Made by a program: the position numbers and the translations under genes. A stretch of 64,000 bases of DNA from Methylobacterium oryzae (GTDB lineage: Bacteria; Pseudomonadota; Alphaproteobacteria; Rhizobiales; Beijerinckiaceae). Below, piece after piece: positions 2,511-16,182 of this stretch; the first letter of the stretch is position 1, and each line of letters starts with the position of its first letter. The DNA is taken from positions 2,985,001 through 3,049,000 of the forward strand of contig NZ_CP090349.1 of NCBI RefSeq assembly GCF_021398735.1. The letters are read 5' to 3'. The notes below the pieces were generated by a model. That model worked only from the letters and a program-made list of their open reading frames with translations, did no database searches and had not been told where the DNA came from.

Positions 2511-3536
2511 ATGACCCTGCGCTGGACGCGGCGGCCCGAGGGCTCGACCTGGGGGGATTTCGGCCCCGACGACGAGCTGGGCCGGCTGAACCTGCTCACC
2601 CCCGAGAAGGTGCTGCAGGGGGTCGCCGAGGTGCGCGAAGGGCTGACCTTCTGTCTGAGCCTGCCGCTGGACCTGCCGGGCGGCAACGTCCTGAACCCGC
2701 GCCGCCACCCGCCGCAGATCACCCCGACGCGGCGCGCCAACGGCCGGCCGAACATGAACTTCCCGGTCTGCGAGGAGGTCGACGGCGCCACCGACGTGAT
2801 CTGCGACGACCGCGCGCTGATCCACCTGCAATACTCGACGCAGTGGGACTCGCTAGCCCATGTCGGCTCGCTGTTCGACGCGGACGGGGCGGGCGCCGCG
2901 CCGACCTTCTACAACGGGTTCCGCGGCGGCCGCGACATCGTCGGGCCGAGCGCGCCGGAGGCGGCGGATGAGCCGTCCCGGGCGAAGCGCCTCGGGATCG
3001 AGCGCCTCGCCGAGACCGGCATGCAGGGCCGGGCCGTGATGATCGACCTGCGCGCCCATCTCGGCGACGCCAGGACACGCGTCGGCTACGACCAGCTCGC
3101 CCGGATCCTGGAGGCCGACGGCGTCGTGGTGGAGCCGGGCGACATGGTCTGCCTGCACACGGGCTTCGCCGAGCGGCTGATCGCCATGGGCGGCGCGCCG
3201 GACCCGAAGCTCGTCCACACCCTCTGCGCCGGCCTCGACGGGCGCGACCCGCGCCTCCTCGACTGGATCACCCGCACCGGGCTCTGCGCGCTGATCGCCG
3301 ACAACTACGCGGTGGAGGCCTACCCGGCTGGCCCCGGCCCCGCCTGCTGCGCGACGCTGCCGCTCCACGAGCACTGCCTGTTCAAGCTCGGGGTCAATCT
3401 CGGCGAGCTGTGGCACCTGACGCCGCTGGCCGACTGGCTGCGGGCCCGCGGCCGCAGCCGCTTCCTGCTCACCGCCCCGCCGCTGCGCCTGCCCGGCGCC
3501 GTCGGCTCGCCGACGACGCCGATCGCCACGGTGTGA
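2511..3536 (+). CDS. Cyclase family protein (kynurenine formamidase-like hydrolase)
   Basis: A 341-residue protein of the PF04199 cyclase family, metal-dependent amide or lactone hydrolases related to kynurenine formamidase and isatin hydrolase. Family features are the opening GSTWGDFGPDDELGRLNLL and the motif STQWDSLAHVGS, which takes the place of the usual HxGTHxDxP metal site, followed by GDMVCLHTGFAER and LPLHEHCLFKLGVNLGELW. The ATG at 2511 gives the normal N-terminus; the upstream extension of the frame is composition-biased. The gene is divergent from a LivK/LivH-type importer, and a shared substrate is a reasonable inference. The exact reaction is not known for this subgroup. Confidence 0.85.
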   Translation: MTLRWTRRPEGSTWGDFGPDDELGRLNLLTPEKVLQGVAEVREGLTFCLSLPLDLPGGNVLNPRRHPPQITPTRRANGRPNMNFPVCEEVDGATDVICDDRALIHLQYSTQWDSLAHVGSLFDADGAGAAPTFYNGFRGGRDIVGPSAPEAADEPSRAKRLGIERLAETGMQGRAVMIDLRAHLGDARTRVGYDQLARILEADGVVVEPGDMVCLHTGFAERLIAMGGAPDPKLVHTLCAGLDGRDPRLLDWITRTGLCALIADNYAVEAYPAGPGPACCATLPLHEHCLFKLGVNLGELWHLTPLADWLRARGRSRFLLTAPPLRLPGAVGSPTTPIATV

Positions 3537-3579
3537 CGATCGGGAACGGCCCCGCGGCGCGCTCCCGGGGTCGCCCGGA

Positions 3580-5565
3580 TCAGCCGAGGGCGGCGGGTGC
3601 GGCGGCGCGCGGCGGGTCGCCGACCGGCTCCGCGGCGTCCTGGGGCGGCCCGGGGCGGAGGACGGCGCGCTCCCGGAAATGCGGGATGGCCGCCTCGAAC
3701 ACGGCCTCGGCGGCCGCCCGGTCGCCGGCCGCCACGGCGTCGCGCAGCCGCGCCACCCAGGCGTCGAGCCGGTCCCGATCGGCGAAGACCGGCCGCGCCG
3801 CCATCACCCCGTCGATGCCCGGCAGGGCGATCCGGGGCTCCTCGCGGGCGAACAGGATCTCGTTGAGCCGCTCGCCGGGCCGGGCGCCGGTATAGGCGAT
3901 CTCGATCTCGGTGCCGGGCTCGAAGCCGGCCAGCCGGATCATCCGCTCGGCGAGGTCGGCGATCCGCACCGGCTGCCCCATCTTGAGCACGTAGACCGCG
4001 GCGCGCTCCGCGCCCGCCCGGGCCTCGCCGTCGGCGTGGGAGGCGGCCGTCAGCACGAGGTCGCAGGCCTCGCGCACGGTCATGAAGTAGCGGACCATGT
4101 CCGGGTGGGTGACGGTGACCGGGCCGCCCCGGGCGATCTGCGCCTTGAAGACCGGCACGACCGAGCCCACGGAGCCCAGCACGTTGCCGAACCGCACGGC
4201 GATCAGCCGGGTCGGGTGGTCCGGCCGCGCCGACTGCGCGGCGTCGAGGGCCTGGGCGACCATCTCGGCGAAGCGCTTCGTGACCCCGAGCTGCGAGACC
4301 GGCTCGATCGCCTTGTCGGTGGAGATCATCACGAGCGCCCGCGCGCCCGCCGCCACCGCCGCCTCGGCGACGTTGATCGAGCCGAACACGTTGGTCTTGA
4401 TGCCCTCCTGCCAGTCCCGCTCCAGGTAGGGCACCTGCTTCAGCGCGGCGGCGTGGAGCACGTAGTCGGGCCGGAACGCCGCGATCACCGCGTGCGTCCG
4501 CTCACGGTCGCGGATATCGGCCAGCACCCCCGTCACGGCGGTCTCGGCGGCCAGGATCGCGGGGTGGCTGAGGATGCCGTGGAGCGCCGGCTCGGAGGAT
4601 TCGAGCACCAGCACGGCGGCGGCCCCGAAGGCCACGGCCCGCAGGCAGATCTCCGAGCCGATCGACCCGCCGCCGCCGGTCACCACGACCCGGCGGCCGG
4701 CGAGGAACGCCTCCAGACGCGGCCGGTCGATGGCGACGGTCGGCCGCAGCAGCAGGTCCTCGATCTCCAGCGGCGCCAGTTCCGGACCCTGCACGCCCTC
4801 ACCGAGGCCGACGACCCGAGCGAGGGGCAGGCCGAGGCGCCGGGCGCGGGCGATCAGGTCGTCCGGCGCCGCCTCCGGCACGAGGGCGCTCGGGGCGGCC
4901 ACGAGCCGCCGCACCGGCTCGCCGCGGGCGGCGAGGTCGGCGACCACGCGCTCGAGATCCGGGAAGCCGCCGAGCACCGGCACGCCGCGCATGAACTGGC
5001 CGCGCTCGTCCGCTCGGGGCGACAGGATGCCCCGCGGCGCGAGCTTCCGCACCGAGCCCGCCTCGATGGCGCGGATCAGCACGTCCATGTCGGCGCCGCG
5101 CCCGAGGAGCAGGGTCGGGACGGTGGCGGCCCGCGCGCTCGACTGCCGGGAGCGGGTGTCTTTCAGGTAGCGGAACGCCAGGCGCGTGCCGCCCAGGAAG
5201 AAGATCTGCAGCACCCAGTAGAGCAGGATCGCGATCTTGCCGAAGAAGTAGAATCCGTAGAGGTCGGACGAGACCAGCACCCAGTCGATCACCAGGAGCG
5301 CCAGGGCCAGGACGCTGGCCGCCCGGACGATGCCGGCGAGGTCCTGCAACGAGGCGAAGCGCCACTTGGTCCGGTAGAGCCGGAAGCGGCCGTAGACGAG
5401 GCCGGCGAGGACGAGGAACGGCGGCAGCAGCAGGGGCAGGGCGTGCAGACGCTCGGCCAGCATGCCGCCCTGGAAGCGGAACAGGAAGGTGAGCACCACG
5501 GCGGCAGCGGTCGCCGCGAGGTCGTGGGTCACCATCACCGCGGTCTTGTAGAGGCGCTGCTGCAT
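3580..5565 (-). CDS. Nucleoside-diphosphate sugar 4,6-dehydratase of the FlaA1/CapD/WbpM type
   Basis: A 661-residue membrane-anchored polysaccharide biosynthesis enzyme. The first ~150 residues contain four transmembrane helices, followed by a CoA-binding-like Rossmann domain (TLLLGRGADMDVLIRAIE) and a C-terminal extended SDR domain with the nucleotide-binding motif VVVTGGGGSIGSEICLRA and the signature STDKAIEPVSQLGVTKR. This matches WbpM/PglF-type UDP-HexNAc 4,6-dehydratases, which start synthesis of modified amino sugars for O-antigen, capsule or glycoproteins. The length is normal for the long form. No glycosyltransferases flank it, so the product glycan cannot be named. Confidence 0.92.
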   Translation of the reverse strand: MQQRLYKTAVMVTHDLAATAAAVVLTFLFRFQGGMLAERLHALPLLLPPFLVLAGLVYGRFRLYRTKWRFASLQDLAGIVRAASVLALALLVIDWVLVSSDLYGFYFFGKIAILLYWVLQIFFLGGTRLAFRYLKDTRSRQSSARAATVPTLLLGRGADMDVLIRAIEAGSVRKLAPRGILSPRADERGQFMRGVPVLGGFPDLERVVADLAARGEPVRRLVAAPSALVPEAAPDDLIARARRLGLPLARVVGLGEGVQGPELAPLEIEDLLLRPTVAIDRPRLEAFLAGRRVVVTGGGGSIGSEICLRAVAFGAAAVLVLESSEPALHGILSHPAILAAETAVTGVLADIRDRERTHAVIAAFRPDYVLHAAALKQVPYLERDWQEGIKTNVFGSINVAEAAVAAGARALVMISTDKAIEPVSQLGVTKRFAEMVAQALDAAQSARPDHPTRLIAVRFGNVLGSVGSVVPVFKAQIARGGPVTVTHPDMVRYFMTVREACDLVLTAASHADGEARAGAERAAVYVLKMGQPVRIADLAERMIRLAGFEPGTEIEIAYTGARPGERLNEILFAREEPRIALPGIDGVMAARPVFADRDRLDAWVARLRDAVAAGDRAAAEAVFEAAIPHFRERAVLRPGPPQDAAEPVGDPPRAAAPAALG

Positions 5566-13257: not shown

Positions 13258-14862
13258 TCACGCGCGGATGAAATCCGCGATCACGGCCGGAGCCGCGGTG
13301 TCGAAGCCGACCACGTCGAGCATGCCGGGATCCTCCGGGTCGGCGATGCTGAAGCCGTTGGAGACCAGCCCAACGACCACCAGCTTCGCCGGGATCCCGG
13401 TCTTCTCCCGGTACGCCCGCAGCGCCTGGACCGGGTGGACCGGCCCCGCCCAGGTCTCCGAGTCCGTGTAGACCACGAACGCGTCGGCCTTGACGCCCCG
13501 CTCCAGCGCCCAGCGCATCGGCAGGGAGCAGTCGGTGGCGCCGAACGGCAGGTCGGCGGTCGCCCGCACCGCCTGATCGAGCCGCGTCGACGGCCCGATC
13601 GGCAGCGGCGTCATCGCGGCCCCCTGGCTCCAGGCCCGGCCGGCCTCGGCGGTGAAGCCCAGCACCTGCCAGTGCTCCTCGGTCGCCGCGGTGACGAGCG
13701 CCATCGCGGCGGCCGCCTCCCGGGCCGTGAGCGTCGAGCCCGCGACCGTGCTGGCGCCCATCGAGCCCGAGACGTCCAGCGCCAGCACGAGGCGCCGGCC
13801 CGTGGGCTCGACCGCGCCGAACGCCGTGTAGAACGCGGCGTTCGGCGCCTCGACGATCGCCGCCACCGGCTCCCAGGCGAGCTTGCCCCGCTGACCGTGC
13901 CCGGAGGCGTAGGTCTTGAGGGCCAGCAGCAGCGCCATCGGGTGCAGGCGCGCCCGGAGGATCCGCTCCCGGTCCGACAGGACCGCCCGGACGTGCTCGG
14001 TGCCCTCCGAGAAGGGCGCGAGCACCCCCGCGGCCGTCAGGCGGCCGAGCTGGCGCACGAGGGCGCCGACCGGCATCCGCTCGATCAGGGCCTCGTTCAC
14101 CGCGCGGCTGCCCATCAGCCCGGTCGGCAGCGCCTCCCACGGCAGGCCGTGCGAGCGCACCAGGGCGGCGGCCACCGCCCCGTCGAGGCCCTCCGCCTGC
14201 ACCCGCGCGAAGGCGTGGACGAGCCCGGGGGCGGCCTCGGTCACGGTGCCGCGGCAGATCCAGTCGAACAGCGCCTTCCGGGCGGGCTCCTCCGTCTCCG
14301 GATGGGCCAGCCGCAGGAGGTCGCGGTGCGACCAGCCCTGGCGGGTCCGGTACTTCACCGCCTGGAAGGCCAGGGCCTCCACGGGCTTGGCGCAGTACCA
14401 GTCACCGACCGCCCGGCGCAGGCCCCGGCCCCAGCCGCGCATCGCCTCGACGGAGGCGGCGAACTGGAACAGGTGCGTGCCGGTGCGGCAGACCCGCGGC
14501 AGGGCCGCGAGCGCCGCGCGCCGGGTCGCGAGGTCCGCCGACGCGGCGGCCAGCGCCAGGGCGAAGATCGCCGGATCCGGCTTCGGAGCCCGGCCGCCCT
14601 CGCTCACCGCCACGATGGCGGCGACCGCGCGGGCGCCGTCCTGCGCGATGCACCGCTGCACCGCCGCCGCGTTCTCGGCGGTCAGGGCGCGCGGGCTCGC
14701 GTAGTACGAGCCGCCCTCGGAGCCGAGCACCAGGAAGCGGTCGAGCCGCGCCCAGTCGCCGACCGCGAAGGCGTGGCCTCCGGCGGCGTTCGGCACCGTG
14801 CCGGGGATCGGCTCCGTCTGCGGGGTGGCGCGGAGCCGGAACATCTGTGCGAGCTTCGTCAT
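13258..14862 (-). CDS. rsr: Ro60-like TROVE domain RNA-binding protein
   Basis: A 534-residue bacterial orthologue of the Ro60 autoantigen. The N-terminal part carries the TROVE HEAT-like ring (for example LDRFLVLGSEGGSYYASPRA and VRKALFD-type repeats, with GTHLFQFAASVEAMRGWGRG), which binds misfolded RNA ends in its hole and Y RNA on its outside. The C-terminal vWA domain has a complete MIDAS: DVSGS from Asp363, then a Thr and YTDSETW. Bacterial Ro (Rsr) works with Y RNAs in rRNA maturation and in RNA decay with exoribonucleases. Start 14862 has an AGAGGAG site. Four Y-RNA-like elements lie directly upstream on the same strand, which strongly supports the call. No rtcB/rtcA genes are nearby. 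Confidence 0.95.
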   Translation of the reverse strand: MTKLAQMFRLRATPQTEPIPGTVPNAAGGHAFAVGDWARLDRFLVLGSEGGSYYASPRALTAENAAAVQRCIAQDGARAVAAIVAVSEGGRAPKPDPAIFALALAAASADLATRRAALAALPRVCRTGTHLFQFAASVEAMRGWGRGLRRAVGDWYCAKPVEALAFQAVKYRTRQGWSHRDLLRLAHPETEEPARKALFDWICRGTVTEAAPGLVHAFARVQAEGLDGAVAAALVRSHGLPWEALPTGLMGSRAVNEALIERMPVGALVRQLGRLTAAGVLAPFSEGTEHVRAVLSDRERILRARLHPMALLLALKTYASGHGQRGKLAWEPVAAIVEAPNAAFYTAFGAVEPTGRRLVLALDVSGSMGASTVAGSTLTAREAAAAMALVTAATEEHWQVLGFTAEAGRAWSQGAAMTPLPIGPSTRLDQAVRATADLPFGATDCSLPMRWALERGVKADAFVVYTDSETWAGPVHPVQALRAYREKTGIPAKLVVVGLVSNGFSIADPEDPGMLDVVGFDTAAPAVIADFIRA

Positions 14863-15030: not shown

Positions 15031-15149
15031 GCGGGCGTGGCGGCGACGAGGGGCTTATCCGATGCTCTGCTTGAGCTACGGGCCTGACGACCCGGCGGGA
15101 CTCGCACCCGCACCCCTCGGATCCCGATAACCTTCGTCTTCCGGCCCGC
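15031..15149 (-). ncRNA. Y RNA-like element A with tRNA-like module
   Basis: Reading the minus strand from 15149, the element starts GCGGGCCGG and has GGTTATC after 8 bases. It ends CACGCCCGC at 15031. The ends pair as GCGGGC/GCCCGC; a second stem GACGA-A-GG pairs with CCTCGTC across one irregularity. Between them are a T-arm-like hairpin (15095-15111, 5-bp stem, loop TGCGAGT), an acceptor-like hairpin CGGGTC-GTCA-GGCCCG (15079-15094) and a short D-arm-like hairpin GCTC-AAGCA-GAGC. The arm order T, acceptor, D is that of a permuted tRNA opened at the anticodon. The T-loop departs from TTCGA and the D-loop lacks GG, so this copy may be degenerating or specialised. Confidence 0.75.
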
Positions 15150-15160
15150 GTCCGGGCGAT

Positions 15161-15285
15161 GCGGGCGTGGGGTGAGGAACGGTGTCCGGGCGCTCTATCC
15201 GGTCTGAGCTACGGGCCTCGCGGCCCGGCGGGATTCGAACCCGCGACCTCCCTTCGGTGAAGATAACCGTTCCTCTCCGGCCCGC
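15161..15285 (-). ncRNA. Y RNA-like element B with permuted tRNA mimic
   Basis: This is the best-formed element, about 125 nt from 15285 to 15161. The terminal stem GCGGGC/GCCCGC is separated by an internal loop from a perfect 10-bp stem (GAGGAACGGT with ACCGTTCCTC). The enclosed module reads T arm (15228-15244, GCGGG-TTCGAAT-CCCGC), acceptor stem closed by a GCGA tetraloop (CGGGCC-GCGA-GGCCCG, 15212-15227), TA, then D arm (GCTC-AGACCGGATA-GAGC, 15192-15209, with the conserved GG). It is therefore a tRNA cut at the anticodon and rejoined at the acceptor end, as in YrlA-type bacterial Y RNAs. The T-loop would be a substrate for tRNA modification enzymes in such RNAs. Confidence 0.87.
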
Positions 15286-15339
15286 ATTGTCGGCCGGGAT
15301 CCGCGCACGGTCGGCGCCCCGGTCGTCTCGCGGGGCCCT

Positions 15340-15468
15340 GCGGTCGTGGTGTCGGAGACGGGCATGAGCTCCGGCGACCTCGCGGCCCCCGACGGGGATC
15401 GAACCCGCAACCTCCGCGGGACAAGCCCGCGGCGCTCTACCGATGATAACCGTCCCCTGCCGGCCCGC
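15340..15468 (-). ncRNA. Y RNA-like element C with tRNA mimic opened in the D-loop
   Basis: The 5' part (from 15468) has GCGGGCCGG-N8-GGTTATC. The inner stem GGGGACGG pairs with CCGTCTCC (8 bp, one G-U) and the outer GCGGGC pairs with GACCGC except one mismatch. Inside, the order is D-stem 3' half GAGC, a strong hairpin CCGCGGG-CTTGT-CCCGCGG in the anticodon-arm position (15414-15432), a T arm (15392-15408, loop TTCGATC), an acceptor hairpin with GCGA loop (15372-15391, one mismatch), then D-stem 5' half GCTC. The Y stem thus replaces the D-loop rather than the anticodon arm. The anticodon-like loop lacks U33, so it is not a decoding tRNA. The exact 3' end is inferred. Confidence 0.75.
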
Positions 15469-15486
15469 AGGGTCCTCGAGACGCGC

Positions 15487-15585
15487 TCAGCCTCTCGGGC
15501 CGAGAGCCCCGCGATACGACCGTAACGGTCGCATCAGCCCGGAACGGGCGAACGCCGCGACGTCGATGCCGTCGTGCTGTTTCAT
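15487..15585 (-). CDS. Possible 32-residue small protein between Y RNA elements
   Basis: A short frame starting MKQHDGIDVAAFARSG and ending in GPRG has an ATG at 15585 preceded by GGAG about six bases upstream. It sits between elements C and D on the same strand and would be carried on any transcript spanning the array. Nothing in it identifies a family. The region also contains two small hairpins (15492-15506 and 15517-15531) that may simply separate the RNAs. Chance occurrence is quite possible in a sequence this GC-rich. Confidence 0.25.
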   Translation of the reverse strand: MKQHDGIDVAAFARSGLMRPLRSYRGALGPRG

Positions 15586-15617
15586 GCCATGCTCCGTCCG
15601 AACGGGGCTTCGGGTGA

Positions 15618-15682
15618 CGCGGGCGTGTCGATGAGGCTCGGGGGGATCCGTGACAGGGATAACCGAGCGTCTCCGGCCCGCG
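15618..15682 (-). ncRNA. Minimal Y RNA-like element D (no tRNA module)
   Basis: About 65 nt read from 15682 on the minus strand. It shares GCGGGCCGG-N8-GGTTATC with the other three and ends CACGCCCGCG. The outer stem CGCGGGC/GCCCGCG is 7 bp, and an inner 6-bp stem GCTCGG/CCGAGC follows an asymmetric internal loop. The remaining loop holds only a weak hairpin (ATCC...GGAT); there is no T arm, acceptor or D arm. It looks like a bare Ro-binding stem and is the most upstream of the four. Confidence 0.68.
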
Positions 15683-15854
15683 CCGGTGAACTGCGATGGG
15701 CTGCCAGCGGCGACCGTTGCGAAGGGAACCGGACTCGTCCGCCGCGGCGCGCGGGCCGCGGATACGAGGAGCGTGCGGTCACTTCAGATCACCGGCCCGG
15801 CAGGCCGATGGCGCGGTGGATACGGTCGCGCTCGGCCTGCGTCAACCGAAAACT

Positions 15855-15868
15855 TGAAAATTCTTTCA
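15855..15868. promoter_or_regulatory. Inverted repeat upstream of HTH gene, possible operator
   Basis: TGAAA-ATTC-TTTCA is a perfect 5-bp inverted repeat in a short AT-rich patch, 21 bases before the start of the small HTH gene and facing the Y RNA array on the other side. This position would suit autoregulation or joint control of the divergent RNA cluster. No binding data can be inferred from the sequence alone. Confidence 0.35.
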
Positions 15869-15888
15869 GTTCGGGCGATCTCCGGCCC

Positions 15889-16182
15889 ATGATCACTGCC
15901 GCTCAGATCCGCGCCGGCCGCGGACTTCTCAAGTGGACGCAAGGGGTTCTCGCGAGCCGCGCCGCGGTCTCCGTCGTCACCCTGAACATGATCGAGAGCG
16001 AGCAGGTCCAGCCCCGCAGCCGGACCCTCGCGGCGATCCGCACGGTCCTCGAAGGGGCGGGCATCCGCTTCGTCGGCGACGCGCAGGAGGGCTACGGGGC
16101 GATCCTGCGCCCCGCCCCCGCGACCGGGTCCGGAGACGCACCGGCACAGAAAAGCCCGGCACGGCGGACCGCACCGGGCTGA
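15889..16182 (+). CDS. Small XRE-type helix-turn-helix regulator
   Basis: A 97-residue protein whose first ~65 residues form a Cro/CI-type HTH: MITAAQIRAGRGLLKWTQGV, then AAVSVVTLNMIESEQ as the recognition region and TLAAIRTVLEGAGIRFVGD. It is a common alphaproteobacterial single-domain regulator of unknown target. It lies 207 bases from the outermost Y RNA-like element and is divergent from it, so it could control the RNA/rsr cluster or only itself. Its 3' end overlaps a hairpin that serves the convergent reductase gene. Confidence 0.82.
   Translation: MITAAQIRAGRGLLKWTQGVLASRAAVSVVTLNMIESEQVQPRSRTLAAIRTVLEGAGIRFVGDAQEGYGAILRPAPATGSGDAPAQKSPARRTAPG
16153..16180 (-). terminator. Terminator of the ferredoxin-NADP reductase gene
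   Basis: On the minus strand AGCCCGG pairs with CCGGGCT around a GC-rich loop, followed by TTTTCTG, the layout of an intrinsic terminator. It lies 28 bases beyond the reductase stop and overlaps the last codons of the convergent HTH gene. Confidence 0.65.

Follow-up and report, generated by a model that had tools for sequence, protein, structure and literature searches.

An array of Y RNA-like elements with different tRNA-like heads in front of the Ro60 (rsr) gene of Methylobacterium

The rsr locus and the common foot of its elements

The window, a 64,000-nucleotide stretch of the Methylobacterium oryzae genome, encodes on its minus strand a 534-residue Ro60/Rsr orthologue (rsr; 13258-14862) with Pfam matches to TROVE (3.1e-37) and vWA_Ro60 (1.6e-64). 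By sequence, the solved relatives of its product are the Ro60 chains 9nen and 1yvp (E 3.5e-117 for 1yvp) and the Rsr 2nvo (E 8.6e-113). On the same strand, 5' of rsr, lies an array of Y RNA-like elements (15031-15681), and beyond it a 97-residue protein is encoded divergently on the plus strand (15889-16182); the latter has an HTH_3 (XRE) match just above the Pfam cut-off (7.2e-5; 23.2 bits against 23) and is probably a regulator. A first-pass annotation made from the letters alone had placed four minus-strand segments at 15031..15682, between a divergent regulator and a TROVE-domain gene on the same strand: four elements, E1 to E4, are indeed found there, with the extent correct to one base, and the Pfam matches agree with the flanking genes it named.

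All four elements start with GCGGGCCGG, have GGTTATC at positions 18-24 and finish with CACGNCCGC. In the foot that they share, GCGGGCCGG leads into an internal loop and an inner helix; UUAUC and the variable head come next, and the complementary strands last. The outer helix has six pairs in E1, E3 and E4 and five in E2, with an internal loop in each, while over the seven inner positions tested seven pair in E2 and E3 and six in E1 and E4; the 5' and 3' ends thus form the stem with an internal loop that is typical of bacterial Y RNAs. A descriptor of this foot (outer helix at least 5/6, inner helix at least 6/7, GGTTATC with at most one mismatch, score at least 31) gave 122 matches in 28 congeneric rsr upstream regions against five in 560 dinucleotide shuffles, which upholds the earlier reading of matching ends, outer stem, internal loop and inner stem in each segment. 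Over both strands of the whole window it returned E1-E4, a weak match at 15816-15742 and a stray one at 8101-8005. A possible fifth, degenerate element, E0 (~15701-15803, minus strand), keeps the CTGCC/GGCAG ends and has lost UUAUC; its descriptor match in the window is weak and shifted, and the segment 15705-15820 folds no better than its shuffles (z 0.17). Fuller orthologues of E0 are present in six congeneric loci (L003, L005, L020, L026, L028 and L030).

The folding energies of E1, E3 and E4 are lower than those of their shuffles (z -3.15, -3.19 and -1.64, respectively). That of E2 is not (z 0.40), and the case for E2 therefore rests on comparison. It had been anticipated that annotation pipelines would miss the array: ARAGORN reports no tRNA anywhere in the window, and Rfam at its gathering cut-offs gives no match there, so that E2-type elements may be overlooked elsewhere. 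With relaxed limits, Rfam assigns E3 (49.6 bits, E 2e-9) and E4 (44.7 bits, E 5e-8) to YrlA and E1 to a stem-bulge (Y-like) RNA (32.9 bits).

Ahead of the array stands a promoter-like site (15817-15845, minus strand) with TTGACG at 15845-15840, a 17-nt spacer and TATCCA at 15822-15817, placed so that transcription would begin at the first element. A consensus promoter scan made no call at this site; TTGAC occupies the position in 28 of 28 rsr loci of the genus, with a variable second box, and no sigma-54 promoter with the required spacing was seen by eye at the locus. On the 5' side of the -35 box there is an imperfect palindrome of 21 nt (AACTGAAAGAATTTTCAAGTT; 15851-15871, minus strand), which recurs slightly altered at the 28 rsr loci of the genus and is a candidate operator for the divergent HTH protein. 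A narrow search with the operator pattern matched eight of 111 genomes, all of them with rsr, and is uninformative on the remaining genomes. Since the palindrome and then TTGAC precede the first element in the 28 genus loci, array and rsr seem to form a single unit. Between E1 and E2 lies a small ORF of 32 codons (MKQHDGIDVAAFARSGLMRPLRSYRGALGPRG; 15487-15585, minus strand) with GGAG upstream. An ORF of 24-37 codons with a conserved motif around VAAFARPG follows the first Y RNA at all 29 loci (by rule in 27, by hand in two), and among 27 gap-free sequences pN/pS is 0.59 in its frame versus 1.35 and 1.22 in the other two. It may encode a leader peptide or a small protein.

Headless, YrlA-type and permuted-cloverleaf elements

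The elements differ in what they carry on the common foot. Across loci their class labels come from regular expressions, by which some extents are wrong (E1 is overrun or missed in several Methylorubrum-type loci). E1 (15619-15681, minus strand) is a minimal Y RNA of 63 nt, a Ro60-site stem with a short loop and no tRNA module. Its covariation is weak, with 62 of 500 shuffles reaching the score in an alignment of 17 of the 21 class-E1 rows, in which three identical copies and one false match are omitted and overrun E1 copies are absent.

E3 (15161-15285) and E4 (15031-15149), both on the minus strand, are of the YrlA type: inside the stem a T arm, a closed acceptor hairpin and a D arm follow in this order, and both align over the whole YrlA model (RF02553, 1-114). 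In both the Ro60 stem stands at the position of the anticodon arm. In an alignment of 20 of the 24 class-E3 rows (L003, L005, L017 and L020 are omitted, and the class itself misses some loci) 99.2% of cells pair and the covariation score exceeds that of all 500 shuffles; the numbers of pairs with both sides changed and of further pair types are reached by 64 and 20 of these, respectively. E4 scores 72.3 bits with our model R2 and has a short D loop, AAGCA, without GG, and a T loop, TGCGAGT, without U55. The D-loop GG and U55 of the T loop are two partners of the usual elbow contact of tRNA, and E4 is without both. As the rule for class E4 includes part of the T loop, no conservation is claimed for that loop.

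The head of E2 (15340-15468, minus strand) is a complete, circularly permuted tRNA cloverleaf. With the E2 covariance model R1, which contains the sequence itself, it scores 109.2 bits. We could parse E2 in 27 of the 28 TROVE loci of the genus, G031 being without it. Read from 5' to 3', the head opens, usually with G18 G19 U20 A21, and continues with the 3' strand of the D stem (GAGC), G26 and an anticodon arm; there follow a 5-nt variable loop (AGGTC in 14/27, AGGTT in 9/27), a T arm with TTCGA and a closed acceptor hairpin, and finally U8 A9 (16/27), the 5' strand of the D stem (GCTC) and A14 G15 (16/27). The E2 of the window has GA and AT in place of U8 A9 and A14 G15, and so lacks U8 and G15, and it has three extra bases ahead of GGTA. 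The Ro60 stem thus breaks the D loop between what we take to be tRNA positions 15 and 18.

While all four cloverleaf arms are present, the open acceptor end and the 7-nt anticodon loop of a tRNA are not. The anticodon arm is 18-20 nt long, never of the 5+7+5 form, in all 27 parses, and its loop of 4-6 nt changes in sequence and is no ordinary anticodon loop; its seven outer positions are fully paired in 24 of the 27, with a single mismatch in each of L006, L012 and L029, and in the window the arm has 7 bp and a 5-nt loop. The acceptor closes as a hairpin in 26 of the 27. In the remaining locus, L003, the segment parsed was truncated by an insertion of ~100 nt in the hairpin (E2 at 988-1218) with a palindromic stretch inside, which reads as if the acceptor end of E2 were free of function. 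When E2 sequences were un-permuted, by cutting at the acceptor loop and joining at the D loop, ARAGORN called a tRNA in 14 of 26, that of the window not among them, as against three of 464 cut elsewhere and none of 520 shuffled. In native order it called none of 26 (a set that differs in one locus, with L003 in and L025 out).

In an alignment of 24 of the 27 E2 sequences (L003, L013 and L025 were omitted for their ends and kept in the parse) 96.5% of cells pair, and both the number of cells changed on both sides and the covariation score exceed those of all 500 shuffles, a control that on related sequences overstates significance, as the tool itself warns. Two of the five pair measures do not beat the shuffles: pairs with both sides changed are reached by 129 of 500 and further pair types by 484 of 500. 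A slide of -2 scores 0.099 in covariation versus 0.094 for the proposed pairing. Compensatory exchanges occur in the anticodon arm (GC/AT, GC/CG) and in the T arm. Both strands of the D stem are invariant in the 23 distinct rows of the alignment (L013, outside it, has one mismatch), and RNAalifold paired them with other partners; we keep the cloverleaf because these strands are invariant here and compensatory D stems occur elsewhere. The alignment of the locus across the genus, proposed with the first-pass annotation, therefore yields base-pair covariation in E2 and E3 and little in E1.

The presence of several architectures in one locus, as first claimed, is borne out. The accompanying suggestion that such a locus is undescribed stands in part: several Y RNAs per rsr locus are known, as yrlB and yrlA of Salmonella attest (PMC7790460, PMC9879122), while the architecture of E2 was not found described. 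Among the matches listed in our literature search, no title or abstract points to a D-loop-inserted Y RNA or to Methylobacterium Y RNAs, and to the extent of those texts the closed cloverleaf inserted by its D loop is likely novel.

Linkage to rsr and distribution

Within the genus a TROVE match is present in 28 of 111 genomes, and R1 matches 29: these 28 and G044. Because 24 of these loci went into R1, the informative part is the genomes without TROVE, of which 82 of 83 have no match. The elements are thus encoded beside rsr and found with it (28/28 versus 1/83), as are bacterial Y RNAs. The R1 places listed in the 28 genomes lie within ~1.3 kb of the TROVE match, and in the genome of the window R1 matches at the Y RNA/rsr locus only. 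The match in G031 is a cross-match to a YrlA element, so that E2 proper is found in 27 of the 28. In G044 (L085, ~3000-4359, minus strand) rsr is truncated beyond residue 81 and joined in frame to an RtcB sequence, and seven R2 matches persist in front of the truncated gene.

The loci of the genus have two to six elements by the strict descriptor and up to seven by eye or with the looser R2. This variable number, together with the lack of E2 in G031, suggests that no single element is indispensable. Other heads in relatives consist of a T arm and acceptor hairpin only or of short hairpins, and a further type has a D arm that by eye resembles that of leucine tRNA. Among named rsr loci, the nearest found belong to Methylobacterium and Methylorubrum. 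In part of the genus rtcB lies directly 3' of rsr; among Methylorubrum-type loci RtcB is so placed at L039 5130-6572 and L041 5172-6581. The genome of the window has no RtcB match, and the pairing of rtcB with rsr that marks an RNA repair operon is absent from it.

Outside the genus, we collected the 23 TROVE loci found in 397 genomes from the same order and 398 from the same phylum, three of which (G300, G358 and G488) are below the Pfam cut-off in the TROVE search. With R2 at E 0.01, at least one Y RNA was found in 15 of the 23 and two or more in 12; eight gave no match, and one of these, L155, gave matches with a further model, R3. An E2-type layout is present in five loci (L139, L151, L152, L154 and L155), read by eye after R3 and rule-based matches; R3 also matches tRNAs, hence only matches read by eye were counted, and the modules of L139, L151 and L152 are among the 24 rows behind R3. 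All five proteins have TROVE above the cut-off and four have vWA_Ro60 above it, with L139 at 24.4 versus 27.7 bits. Their E2-type elements lie 3' of rsr in four loci and 5' of it in L139. The feet differ, being ACTAC-type in four and TTACTTC in L139 versus GGTTATC in the genus, while the heads agree, with GCGC/GCGC (by rule) or, in L155, GCTT/AAGC (by eye) replacing the GCTC/GAGC of the D stem. The modules of L151 and L152 fold unaided to the expected cloverleaf; those of L139, L154 and L155 do not do so in full. L155 (G527) and L151 (G354) seemingly have two E2-type elements each.

Relatives of Rsr are also encoded in 340 phage records, and the three such loci examined, L134, L135 and L136, each have one YrlA-type R2 match (E <0.01) before the gene. 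GGTTATC-N0-6-GGTAGAGCG, which marks the junction of an E2-type element, occurs in 37 viral contigs (L087-L123), possibly by chance; none of the 37 passes the strict D-loop rule, which also misses known members.

Proposed function and comparison with known systems

The earlier identification of the segments as Y RNAs is supported by the sub-cut-off matches to YrlA (E3, E4) and to stem-bulge RNA (E1), by co-occurrence with rsr and by the covariation of E2 and E3. According to PMC6181284, PMC8394870 and PMC4726728, the stem of a Y RNA binds Rsr and its tRNA-like part the KH/S1 domains of PNPase, and Y RNAs tether Rsr to PNPase and gate its substrates. Against this background we propose, with a probability of about 0.7, that the locus is transcribed as a single unit, which yields several Y RNAs followed by their partner Ro60 (Rsr), and that these RNAs are alternative adaptors for that one protein. 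The elements, each with the same Ro60-binding foot and a different head, would be cut from a long precursor as separate RNAs of 63-129 nt and would compete for one Ro60 ring, so that one Ro protein might have a choice of RNAs. The headless E1 would occupy or gate the ring, and the YrlA heads of E3 and E4 would link it to PNPase, a role reported for other Y RNAs. The entire tRNA-like cloverleaf of E2, closed, undecodable and attached by the D loop, would recruit either another tRNA-binding partner or the same one in a different orientation. The head would then decide which enzyme meets the RNA threaded through Ro60.

The array might instead act in cis, with Rsr binding its own ~950-nt leader via the repeated stems to control translation or decay of the rsr mRNA, and no separate RNAs being made. 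In agreement with this, all elements share the strand of rsr and lie between it and a single promoter-like site, and the leader contains the small ORF. However, such binding should need the foot only, yet elaborate class-specific tRNA heads are conserved; moreover, E2-type elements lie 3' of rsr in four of the five loci outside the genus, and known bacterial Y RNAs are separate RNAs (PMC4726728, PMC8394870). We regard this reading as improbable, and give equally little weight to the array being a tandem duplication for dosage in which the heads differ by drift: the number and kinds of elements do vary between species and E0 looks decayed in the window, but 27 of 28 loci keep the E2 layout, with covariation, and the layout turns up again in other genera. 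Exchangeable adaptors fit best with a common foot that bears conserved and different heads.

Compatible with adaptors, though in our judgement unlikely, is a role as decoys, in which closed tRNA-like heads, stabilised by Ro60, would under stress sequester nucleases that attack tRNA or enzymes that modify it. A competitive-inhibitor role has been suggested for YrlA, possibly on an anticodon nuclease (PMC7790460), and rtcB lies next to rsr in some congeners; yet E2, without an ordinary 7-nt anticodon loop, offers anticodon nucleases little to recognise, and the genome of the window is without an RtcB match. To tRNA pseudogenes or a degraded tRNA cluster we give next to no credence. T-arm and D-arm sequences of tRNA type are present, but the order of arms is permuted, the ends are closed, and the structure is conserved and linked to rsr. 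Both tRNA genes and pseudogenes were rejected on this permuted closed layout and on the ARAGORN results for the window and for E2 in native order.

Returning to alternative adaptors, we would also suggest, tentatively and at somewhat less than even odds, that E2 represents a second, as yet unnamed class of Y RNAs that mimic tRNA in Alphaproteobacteria, in which a full cloverleaf, permuted, lacking an anticodon and closed at the acceptor, hangs on Ro60 by its D loop. Along with YrlA and headless forms it would turn Ro60 into a ring whose adaptors, as many as seven per locus, can be exchanged, the bound Y RNA setting the enzyme or substrate served. It has long been asked, for animals too, why Ro60 should have several Y RNAs, and variants that stand side by side with one foot and different heads allow direct head-swap and deletion tests. 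As E2 is entered via the D loop and has neither an open acceptor nor an anticodon, the elbow and arms are its only readable features, and its anatomy narrows what the partners of Y RNAs recognise.

Of the known systems, YrlA (RF02553; Salmonella YrlA, PDB 6CU1, as named in PMC8394870) is like E3 and E4 in the closing stem, T arm, closed acceptor hairpin, D arm and adjacency to rsr. E3 and E4 score below its gathering cut-off of 69 bits, and E4 differs in lacking U55 and G18 G19. The locus also differs in having four elements, and up to seven in relatives. YrlA has the Ro60 stem in place of an anticodon arm, whereas E2 carries it within the D loop besides having an anticodon arm, and hence departs from the layout of that family. 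The Salmonella RNA repair operon rsr-yrlBA-rtcBA (PMC7790460, PMC9879122) likewise has rsr with more than one Y RNA, and the part of the genus with rtcB directly after rsr shares a further likeness to it. Here, however, the Y RNAs precede rsr, the genome of the window is without an RtcB match, and in place of RtcR and sigma-54 there are a divergent HTH_3 protein and a TTGAC-type promoter-like site.

The Deinococcus Y RNA (RF01053) likewise combines an Rsr stem with a PNPase head; E3 reaches only 19.7 bits against its gathering cut-off of 80. The match of E1, below the cut-off of 38 bits, is to an animal family, the nematode stem-bulge RNA ceN72-3_ceN74-2 (RF01656), and PMC4726728 describes a UUAUC motif in the loop of sbRNAs and of vertebrate Y RNAs. 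The likeness of E1 to RF01656 may reflect convergence on the Ro60 site. Work by Chen of 2014 reportedly states that every species has at least one tRNA-like Y RNA, a wording which implies that several Y RNAs per species were already known. Finally, circularly permuted tRNA genes share with E2 the permuted order of tRNA arms and mature into working tRNAs; unlike them, E2 keeps its acceptor closed and does without an ordinary anticodon loop.
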